This document shows, one piece after another, positions 60,902 through 64,000 of a stretch of DNA of 64,000 bases (position 1 is the stretch's first letter; the number at the start of each line of letters is the position of its first letter). Position numbers and translations under genes: made by a program. The notes beneath the pieces were generated by a model. That model did not search any database, was not told the origin of the DNA, and saw only the letters and a list, made by a program, of their open reading frames with translations. The stretch spans positions 1 to 64,000 of the forward strand of contig DAHUZK010000011.1 in assembly GCA_027306605.1 (NCBI GenBank). Reading direction: 5' to 3'. This stretch comes from Acidimicrobiaceae bacterium. GTDB taxonomy: Bacteria; Actinomycetota; Acidimicrobiia; Acidimicrobiales; RAAP-2.

Positions 60902-61846
60902 TCAGCCGAATTCCTCACCCAGTTGGAGAAGGGCGCCGTCCGCCTCGGACCAGGTCGCCTCCGCGGCGTTGCGGGCCGCCTTACGCTCGCGCACGACCTT
61001 GCGCTTCAGGCCCTTCCGCTCGGAATGGATGGTGCGCAGGACGCGGATGCCGTCCGAGATGGCGTTCAGGTTGCTCGCCCCGAAGTGGCGGGCCGTCTCG
61101 AAGCTGGGGATCTCGGTGACCCGGAGACCCTCCTTGGCGATCCGCACGTTGATGAGCGTCTCGACCTCGAAACCGTCGCCCCAGAGCATCGCCCCGTCCT
61201 CGCCTCGCAGGTCCGTCGCCGGCAGGCGCATGGCATCGAGGCACTCCCGGCGGAAGGCGTTGTAGCCGTAGCACAGGTCCGTGTAATTGGTCCCGTAGAG
61301 CACGTTGACGATCTTGTTGAGCCAGAAGTTGCCGATTCGCCGGATGAAGGTGATGTCGTCGCTCCCGCCGCCCGAGACGAAGCGGGAACCCTTGGCGAAA
61401 TGGGCGCCACGCCGCAGGGCATCGATGAAGCGGGGGATCTCACCGGGGTCGTTGGAGCCGTCGGCGTCGATCATGACGATGAAGTCACCCTTGGATGCCG
61501 CGAAGCCGCAGGCGAGAGCGTTCCCCTTGCCCCCGCGCGTCTGGTTCACGATGGTGATGTCCGGCCGGAGCGACTGGGCCACGGCGATCGTGTCGTCGGT
61601 CGAGTTCCCGTCGACCAGGATGAGCTCGCAGTCCTCGGGGAGCTTCTGGAGGACGTGAGGGAGGTTGCGGGCCTCGTTCTTGGCCGGGATCACGATGCTG
61701 ACGGTCGGTTCGGCCGCCTGCCCCACCGGAAGCTCGCCCTCCGCCTGTACCCCTCGGGGCCCCGTCTCGGATCCGCCCGAGGGAGGCTCGAAGCCTGTCG
61801 TCTCCACCGCCATGGCACCCGCCTTGCTGCTGCCCACCAGAGTCAT
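60902..61846 (-). CDS. GT2-family glycosyltransferase
   Basis: 314 codons from ATG 61846; GTG 61897 and ATG 61813 are alternatives and none has an ideal ribosome site. From 'TVSIVIPAKNEARNLPHVLQKLPEDCELILVDGNSTDDT' to 'GDFIVMIDADGSNDPGEI' and 'KGSRFVSGGGSDDITFIRRIGNFWLNKIVNVLYG', this is a GT-A fold with the DxD-like DAD motif. It resembles dolichol-phosphate-mannose-synthase-like and undecaprenyl-linked transferases, but lacks C-terminal membrane helices. Divergent from the GMC-like gene. Confidence 0.88.
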   Translation of the reverse strand: MTLVGSSKAGAMAVETTGFEPPSGGSETGPRGVQAEGELPVGQAAEPTVSIVIPAKNEARNLPHVLQKLPEDCELILVDGNSTDDTIAVAQSLRPDITIVNQTRGGKGNALACGFAASKGDFIVMIDADGSNDPGEIPRFIDALRRGAHFAKGSRFVSGGGSDDITFIRRIGNFWLNKIVNVLYGTNYTDLCYGYNAFRRECLDAMRLPATDLRGEDGAMLWGDGFEVETLINVRIAKEGLRVTEIPSFETARHFGASNLNAISDGIRVLRTIHSERKGLKRKVVRERKAARNAAEATWSEADGALLQLGEEFG

Positions 61847-62100
61847 GTCCCTCGTCCAGGTTTCGCCAAAAATTCGCCAAGTTCGCGGACCGAACACTCG
61901 GTAGTAGTGTCAGCCGCCCTTCGATCATGACAATCGGTCGCGCGCCCAGGTAGAGCCGATCGAACCTAATCAGGACGCCAATTCCTGACGAAGTGTCAAC
62001 TCCGGGACACATTGCGAATCCTTTCACAATTTCCGGACAACAACTGAGATGGGCCTGAGAGAATCGGGCCCCTGACAAGGCATGGGAGGTGGAGCTCGAA

Positions 62101-63693
62101 ATGGGCACGGCGCTGATCATCGGATCGGGTCCCGCCGCAGCCGGTGTCGCCCTGGCTCTGACCGCGCAGGGCTCCCACGAGGTGACCGTGATCGACGTGG
62201 GGACAACGCTCGAGCCCGACCTCCGGTCGGTGCTGACCCGCCTGGGGGAGGCCGACGAGGACTCCTGGTCGCCGGCCGACCTGGCACGCATCGGGCTCCA
62301 GCCGGTGCCGGCACGGCGCGGGCTCCTTCCCGAGAAGCGCGCCCACGGGTCGGACTTCCCCTTTCGAGACGTCGGGCAGCGCCAGGGTGTCGAGGCCGGC
62401 GGCCCGGCCAACGACGCCGTCGTGTCGGGCGCCTACGGCGGGTTCTCCAACGTCTGGGGCGCCCAGATCATGCCGTTCTCGAAGGCCACGTTCGACCGCT
62501 GGCCCCTCTCCATGCTCGACATGGAGCAGCACTACCGGGTGGCGCTGAGCGAGATGACGTTGGCGGGCGAGGAGGACGACCTCGCGGAGCTCTTCCCGTT
62601 GTTGGTTCCAGCTCGGTCGCTGCCACCGCCGGCAGAGCGGACCGAGCGGGTGTTGCGTCGTTACGGGGAACATCGGGCACTCGTCCAGTCGCACGGCATC
62701 ACGCTCGGTCGGGCCCGGCTGGCGTTCAGGGCCGACGAGTGCACCCGCTGCGGGCTGTGCATGACCGGCTGTCCCTACGAGCTGATCTACTCCAGCGCCC
62801 ACACCTTCGACCGCCTCCGGGCACGGAACCGGATTGCCTATCGCAACGGGTTGCTGGCGCTGCGGCTCGAGGAGATGGGGGGTGTGCCCCAGGTCGTGGC
62901 CCGGGACACCCGGTCCGGGCGCCTCGAGCGGATCAGCGCCGACCGGATCTTCGTGGCCTGCGGCGGGATCGGCACGACCCGGCTCGTGCTCGGGTCCCTG
63001 GGTCTCTTCGACGAGCCGACCTACCTGCAGGAGTCGGTGCAGTTCGTCGTGCCCGCTGTCTCGCTGCGACCCGTCGGTGATCCCCGGACAGCTCGGAATT
63101 TCACACTGAACCAGTTCAACCTTCTCTACGACGCCAGCGGCGAGGGCCGCGACCTCTGCCAGGTCCACTTCTACGACTACAACCCGGCCTACCTCGGATC
63201 GCTGCCGCCGGCCCTGCTGCGCAAGGGTGCCGGCCCCGCGCTGGCCGCCGTGCTGCGACGGGTCTCGGTGGGCCTCGGATACGTGCCGGGCTGGGCATCG
63301 CCGAGGGTCGAGCTCGTCGCACGCCGGTCCCGCACCGAGGATGCGCTTCCCGGGCTGGAGGTCGGGCGCCAGGGCGCGGACGGATGGCCTCCGATGCTGC
63401 GCGGCCTGGTGCTCGCCATGCTCAAGGCCGCACCGGCGCTGGACCTGTGGCCGGTCGTGCCGATGGTCTCCGTCTCGGCCGCCGCCAAGAGCTACCACTT
63501 CGGGTCGAGCTTCCCCCACGCCGACAGCCGCGGGGCGCGCGTGACCGACCGGACGGGCCGCCTGGCGGCCTGGGAGCGCATCCACCTGGTGGACGCCTCG
63601 GTCTTTCCCGACGTGCCGGCCACGACCTTCACCCTGACCGTCATGGCGAACGCTCACCGCATCGCCAGCGAGACGCTCGAGGCGGCCCGGTGA
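62101..63693 (+). CDS. GMC-type FAD oxidoreductase with a 4Cys cluster motif
   Basis: 530 codons from ATG 62101, preceded by GGAG and a spacer of 6; GTG 62089 is possible. The FAD site is 'ALIIGSGPAAAGVALALTAQGSHEVTVIDVG'; 'GGFSNVWGAQIMPF' and the C-terminal 'IHLVDASVFPDVPATTFTLTVMANAHRIA' are GMC-like. C214, C217, C220 and C224 in 'CTRCGLCMTGCPY' form a CxxCxxCxxxCP motif, usual for a 4Fe-4S cluster. The role is probably oxidation of a sugar or alcohol in a polysaccharide- or lipid-modifying cluster. The stop overlaps the next start (GTGA). Confidence 0.82.
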   Translation: MGTALIIGSGPAAAGVALALTAQGSHEVTVIDVGTTLEPDLRSVLTRLGEADEDSWSPADLARIGLQPVPARRGLLPEKRAHGSDFPFRDVGQRQGVEAGGPANDAVVSGAYGGFSNVWGAQIMPFSKATFDRWPLSMLDMEQHYRVALSEMTLAGEEDDLAELFPLLVPARSLPPPAERTERVLRRYGEHRALVQSHGITLGRARLAFRADECTRCGLCMTGCPYELIYSSAHTFDRLRARNRIAYRNGLLALRLEEMGGVPQVVARDTRSGRLERISADRIFVACGGIGTTRLVLGSLGLFDEPTYLQESVQFVVPAVSLRPVGDPRTARNFTLNQFNLLYDASGEGRDLCQVHFYDYNPAYLGSLPPALLRKGAGPALAAVLRRVSVGLGYVPGWASPRVELVARRSRTEDALPGLEVGRQGADGWPPMLRGLVLAMLKAAPALDLWPVVPMVSVSAAAKSYHFGSSFPHADSRGARVTDRTGRLAAWERIHLVDASVFPDVPATTFTLTVMANAHRIASETLEAAR

Positions 63694-64000
63694 CGGGAGA
63701 GCGGTCCGTCGTCGCCATCACCGGTGCCACCGGCTACCTGGGCTCGGTCCTCGTCGACGCTTTCGAGTCGGCCGGCTCCACGGTCCGTCGGCTGGTGCGG
63801 TCTCCGGTGCCCGGGAGCAGCGACGGCTCCTTCGCACTGGGCTCCACCCCGCCACCGGGGACGCTCGACGACGTGGAGCTCCTGATCCACTGCGCCTACG
63901 ATCTGGGGCTGACCAAACGGGCCGACATCTGGGAGACCAACGTGTTCGGCACCGTCGCCTTGTTCGACCAGGCGCGGGCGAGCGGAGTCCGTCGGACGAT
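63690..64000 (+). CDS. NAD-dependent epimerase/dehydratase-family protein, cut by window end
   Basis: The first 103 codons from GTG 63690, which overlaps the GMC stop as GTGA. The cofactor site is 'VVAITGATGYLGSVLVDAFESAGSTVRRLVRS', then 'DDVELLIHCAYDLG' and 'NVFGTVALFDQARASGV'. It is an extended SDR; the remainder, including YxxxK, lies outside the window. It probably modifies a nucleotide sugar with its two neighbours. Confidence 0.85.
   Translation, partial: MTGERSVVAITGATGYLGSVLVDAFESAGSTVRRLVRSPVPGSSDGSFALGSTPPPGTLDDVELLIHCAYDLGLTKRADIWETNVFGTVALFDQARASGVRRT

Follow-up and report, generated by a model that had tools for sequence, protein, structure and literature searches.

Among iron-sulfur GMC enzymes, the best studied are sugar dehydrogenases that are linked to cytochromes and valued in biosensors. 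The fructose dehydrogenase of Gluconobacter japonicus is a membrane complex with a c-type cytochrome and a small subunit, and the bacterial pyranose and C-glycoside oxidases, which oxidise sugar ring hydroxyls, use oxygen and carry no cluster. In the glucose dehydrogenase of Burkholderia (BcGDH), Cys212, Cys218 and Cys222 hold a [3Fe-4S] cluster that lies 12–13 Å from FAD N5 and acts as an electron relay towards a cytochrome subunit (PMC6719666). A two-enzyme precedent comes from mycobacteria, where DprE1/DprE2 act as the decaprenyl-phospho-ribose 2'-epimerase by flavin oxidation and subsequent NAD(P)H-dependent reduction by the partner (PMC9993113). Here, a GMC gene from an Acidimicrobiaceae bacterium was compared with these systems. 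The window is the whole stretch of DNA analysed, comprising 64,000 nucleotides of contig DAHUZK010000011.1, and its features are listed in Table 1.

Table 1. Coordinates of the GMC gene, its Cys motif and the adjoining genes in the window.
Feature	Position	Strand	Remarks
GT2 glycosyltransferase	60902..61897	-	Divergent from the GMC gene; weakly AglJ-like, below that model's cut-off
Shine-Dalgarno-like GGGAGG	62084..62089	+	11 bases 5' of the GMC ATG; sequence reading
GMC-type FAD oxidoreductase gene	62101..63693	+	530 aa; ATG 62101, stop 63693
Putative cluster-ligand motif C214-x2-C217-x2-C220-x3-C224, then Pro225	62740..62772	+	From translation
SDR gene, 5' part (PF01370)	63690..64000	+	GTG start; ends near contig base 64556, beyond the window

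The open reading frame enclosing the GMC gene spans 62089–63693, and the ATG chosen within it is a good start behind GGGAGG. The protein carries GSGPAAAG at its N-terminus, within a Rossmann FAD motif at residues 5–17 (LIIGSGPAAAGVA), and a PF05199 GMC_oxred_C domain (26.7 bits, above the Pfam cut-off of 24.6). The catalytic pair, His466 and Asn517, is kept in 93/93 and 92/93 aligned homologues, respectively. Moreover, the 50 best Foldseek matches of the AF2 model (mean pLDDT 93.7) were all GMC structures. The C-terminal domain, the FAD motif, the His/Asn pair and the fold place the protein in the GMC oxidoreductase superfamily, and the FAD-dependent GMC enzyme described in the first-pass annotation was borne out. 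Because the Rossmann strand stands at the very start of the protein, no signal peptide is apparent, and the dehydrogenase is probably cytoplasmic. An identity as MftG/mycofactocin dehydrogenase was rejected, the matches being weak, limited to the C-terminal part and far under the cut-off, and PDB matches to G-protein chains were due to chance.

By translation from ATG 62101, the motif runs from codon 62740–62742 (C214) to codon 62770–62772 (C224), with the sequence DECTRCGLCMTGCPYELIYSS, and the first-pass placement of the four Cys was exact. When six Cys, the total of this protein, were placed at random in 530 residues, none of 200,000 trials gave CxxCxxCxxxC, and the motif is not a chance occurrence. 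The four-Cys CxxCxxCxxxCP pattern is that of a [4Fe-4S] ferredoxin-type site, and the Pfam Fer4 profile scored 20.6, just under its cut-off of 21.1, with its best stretch at residues 211–229. C214, C220 and C224 were found in all 92 readable homologues (29–69% identity) and C217 in 87 of them, across about ten phylum-level groups; a 93rd alignment row, L076, was left out of these counts for a stop near the motif. Conservation of the Cys in close homologues, which had been proposed as a check, thus held for three positions and nearly held for C217, which is replaced by Glu in actinobacterial L007 and by Val in four Mycobacterium sequences. The latter (L003, L058, L062 and L065, from M. paraense and relatives) represent a natural three-Cys state and keep the SDR partner. 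The conserved, putative cluster-binding motif of the first-pass annotation therefore stands, but its 4Fe-4S label is not established, since the fourth Cys is exactly the variable one and the subfamily also has natural members with three Cys. L076 comes from a Dormiibacterota bin. An in-frame stop codon interrupts its GMC reading frame close to the motif, an SDR gene lies after it, and the interruption reflects a pseudogene or an assembly error. For a rough count, the 30 best PF05199 loci from this bacterium's order were passed through a simple frame filter, which gave a candidate frame in 21: a three- or four-Cys motif was present in 3 of these 21, suggesting that most ordinary GMC proteins lack it. 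Other GMC branches also have three- or four-Cys versions, as weak matches.

The family profile found BcGDH as its best relative in the PDB (6a2u/8hdd, E about 5e-15). In the profile alignment, C214, C220 and C224 pair one-to-one with BcGDH Cys212, Cys218 and Cys222, the three-Cys cluster site of DET-type FAD dehydrogenase catalytic subunits, and C217 aligns with Asn215. The protein thus shares with the alpha subunit of the B. cepacia enzyme (6A2U, 8GRJ) the GMC fold, the His/Asn catalytic pair and ligand Cys at equivalent positions with the same C-x5-C-x3-C spacing. However, the two are only about 16% identical, and the fourth Cys is in a new place: that of BcGDH itself, Cys213, forms a disulfide to its small subunit and is missing here. 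The top nine PDB matches of the AF2 model were BcGDH, which ranked first, and fructose dehydrogenase, the large subunit of the latter (7W2J, 8JEJ) having the GMC fold with a TM-score of about 0.7 and a profile match that takes in the Cys region. Pyranose and C-glycoside oxidases (7QF8, 7DVE, 8QVE, 9FL2) ranked next, and the leading fold matches are sugar-oxidising enzymes, with the exception of one choline oxidase chain. The combination of GMC and iron-sulfur, initially taken as unusual, is therefore of a known kind, with the same site and three of the four Cys equivalent, and the enzyme described here is a four-Cys variant. Homology with BcGDH also supports the earlier suggestion that electrons may pass from FAD to the cluster, given its FAD–cluster distance (PMC6719666), and the FAD-side stretch Trp119-Gly120-Ala121 is conserved in the family.

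Several features of the cytochrome-linked complexes are missing from this locus. No hitchhiker subunit (PF13618) is encoded beside the GMC gene, the sole one detected in the genome (81% complete) lying on contig C5 beside a second GMC gene, and none was detected in 28 of 39 genomes or records that hold a relative of the GMC enzyme. The CxxCH motif of c-type or multiheme cytochromes was found in 0 of 482 neighbouring genes. The same 482 genes included no linked electron carrier gene; a ferredoxin-like motif matched only two, one of which is a fragment of the broken GMC gene of L076. In addition, the histidine for covalent FAD (His105 in BcGDH) aligns with Val118, a position occupied by V, T, L, A or I, and never by His, across the family alignment. 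In place of the adjoining hitchhiker and cytochrome genes of BcGDH, the locus has an SDR gene, and the enzyme departs from the standard cytochrome-linked type. The second GMC gene (L123; contig C5, 51292–53462) reads CNNCGFCAFFGCP and adjoins the PF13618 hitchhiker gene; this locus represents a more canonical iron-sulfur GMC complex in the genome.

The SDR gene (288 aa), which starts with GTG, shares its first 4 bases (GTGA) with the end of the GMC gene, and a 4-base overlap is frequent across loci. According to gene calls, the same SDR family lies directly 3' of the GMC gene on the same strand at 61 of 85 loci. With the SDR genes overlooked by the gene caller and recovered by tblastn (at least four loci: L040, L068, L091 and L092), the count rises to at least 65 of about 85. 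Paired loci are distributed over nine phyla, among them Actinomycetota, Pseudomonadota, Verrucomicrobiota, Planctomycetota and Acidobacteriota, the remaining groups being Myxococcota, Chloroflexota, Dormiibacterota and Melainabacteria. GxxGxxG, Ser106, Tyr118 and Lys122 of the SDR are conserved, with an intact Y/K pair, and the SDR should therefore be an active oxidoreductase; a conserved Arg36 that follows the second strand suggests NADPH as the cofactor. In fold, the SDR comes closest to NDUFA9-like atypical SDRs, to sugar epimerases and to SimC7, a ketoreductase. The first-pass "epimerase" is a conserved neighbour and likely a functional partner, but the name is a family label only, since these structures are as much atypical SDR (NDUFA9-like, SimC7) as sugar epimerase.

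By tblastn, the SDR is absent beside the GMC gene in a Geodermatophilaceae/Pseudonocardia branch (L043, L044, L046, L047, L050, L051, L052 and L060) and at two Mycolicibacterium loci, indicating that the pair is not obligatory there. At several loci of this Geodermatophilaceae/Pseudonocardia branch, aldo-keto reductase-like, zinc-alcohol-dehydrogenase-like and transporter-like genes (named by eye) lie nearby, and the GMC enzyme of the Geodermatophilaceae/Pseudonocardia branch perhaps has a different use. Several long open reading frames (729–1669 aa) were considered as GMC–SDR fusions and rejected, because blastp placed GMC at the C-terminal end only and detected no SDR; their N-terminal extensions probably reflect read-through of a high-GC frame.

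The adjoining GT2 glycosyltransferase is of the same family as the upstream, same-strand neighbour in relative L024. It had been one of the two neighbours behind the earlier substrate proposal; in this genome it is divergent and hence not co-transcribed with the GMC gene. Farther along, the contig encodes glycosyltransferases of families GT4 and GT2, two GH16 proteins, a GNAT protein and, judged by its relatives and without a Pfam match, a flippase-like protein, and the GMC loci of relatives likewise sit among GT2, flippase-like and GH16 genes. The setting of the GMC–SDR pair is therefore one of surface-polysaccharide genes. Together with the sugar-oxidising enzymes among the leading fold matches, these surroundings support the sugar part of the substrate originally proposed, but the polyprenyl part is speculation. 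A whole-genome search of 397 genomes of the phylum gave six strong relatives, and 80 named loci came from the collection scan. The enzyme occurs patchily, in 8 of 395 genomes of the class, and in the tree four Mesorhizobium sequences (L031, L033, L034 and L036) fall inside an otherwise actinobacterial group that has starred branches, suggesting that the pair moved between phyla. This nesting and the patchy presence point to an accessory trait spread by transfer.

We lean, with modest confidence, towards a scheme in which an iron-sulfur GMC dehydrogenase oxidises a sugar hydroxyl and the partner SDR re-reduces the product in surface-glycan synthesis. The GMC enzyme would act on a hydroxyl of a free, nucleotide-linked or lipid-linked sugar, with His466/Asn517 accepting the proton and the hydride passing to FAD. 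From FAD, electrons would be passed singly to a cluster on C214, C220, C224 and probably also C217 as fourth ligand, and from there to a separate carrier, which is the main gap in the scheme. The adjoining NAD(P)H-dependent SDR would then turn the ketone back into a hydroxyl, most likely of the opposite configuration, and the pair would form a two-enzyme redox epimerase or sugar-editing module. The sequences directly support the motif and its conservation, its match to a proven cluster site, the predicted fold and the conserved pairing of the genes. Cluster occupancy, electron transfer and the sugar substrate are what we infer from homology, fold and setting, and epimerisation as the net outcome is the less secure suggestion. 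The FAD enzyme and the SDR are encoded together at the loci studied here, but the likeness to DprE1/DprE2 is one of logic, and homology is not claimed. DprE1 has another flavoprotein fold and, unlike the GMC enzyme, no iron-sulfur cluster. A bolder and more tentative proposal, which we hold to be possible but doubtful, is that a four-Cys iron-sulfur GMC enzyme and a dedicated NAD(P)H SDR form a widespread, undescribed sugar redox-epimerase module in at least nine phyla and that this module arrived independently at the DprE1/DprE2 logic. In surface-glycan synthesis, it would reverse the configuration at one hydroxyl of a sugar linked to a lipid or nucleotide, with an iron-sulfur relay replacing direct flavin re-oxidation.

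The same enzyme and cluster could also operate without epimerisation, a keto sugar, aldehyde or uronic-type residue staying in the glycan and the SDR serving another step. The separation of the pair or lack of the SDR in several branches, and the SDR genes that glycan clusters commonly carry, would fit this alternative, yet one SDR family directly 3' on the same strand at so many loci in nine phyla exceeds the expectation from loose clustering, as judged informally, and we regard it as somewhat unlikely. The type of cluster is a separate matter, because the favoured scheme is also compatible with a native [3Fe-4S] cluster of the BcGDH kind that lacks C217 as a permanent ligand. C217 is the sole variable Cys and corresponds to Asn215 of BcGDH, and the C217V members retain the SDR partner. 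On the other hand, CxxCxxCxxxCP is the classic [4Fe-4S] spacing, C217 is widely kept and a Fer4-type profile comes close to its cut-off on the motif, so that we consider a [3Fe-4S] cluster rather unlikely.

It is quite improbable that the cluster has a structural or oxygen/redox-sensing role and carries no catalytic electrons, with FAD re-oxidised by oxygen or quinone. Most GMC relatives do use oxygen or quinone, and no carrier gene is linked; against this, the equivalent BcGDH cluster is an electron relay at 12–13 Å from FAD, and the FAD-side Trp119-Gly120-Ala121 is conserved. Four Cys by themselves can bind zinc, but a zinc site or a chance motif, already disfavoured, is hardly credible in view of the random placements, the conservation and the one-to-one alignment with a proven iron-sulfur site.

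No published 4Fe-4S GMC enzyme was found in open papers, which is weak evidence as most subscription papers fall outside that scope, and a review of iron-sulfur flavoenzymes mentions neither GMC nor glucose dehydrogenase. A paper on EtfD was rejected as a GMC precedent, "GMC" being a strain name and author initials in it. Likewise, a search of open papers, a scope that leaves out most subscription journals, found no four-Cys branch that stands alone and is paired with an SDR among glycan genes. Relative to the known iron-sulfur GMC enzymes, what is new is the SDR partner. If the scheme is true, this stand-alone, apparently cytoplasmic four-Cys branch with its SDR would bring iron-sulfur GMC chemistry into glycan biosynthesis. 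Moreover, a single site that occurs naturally with either three or four Cys would offer material for how [3Fe-4S] or [4Fe-4S] is chosen, and the GMC–SDR pair would be a candidate source of the unusual stereochemistry of some sugars in surface polysaccharides.
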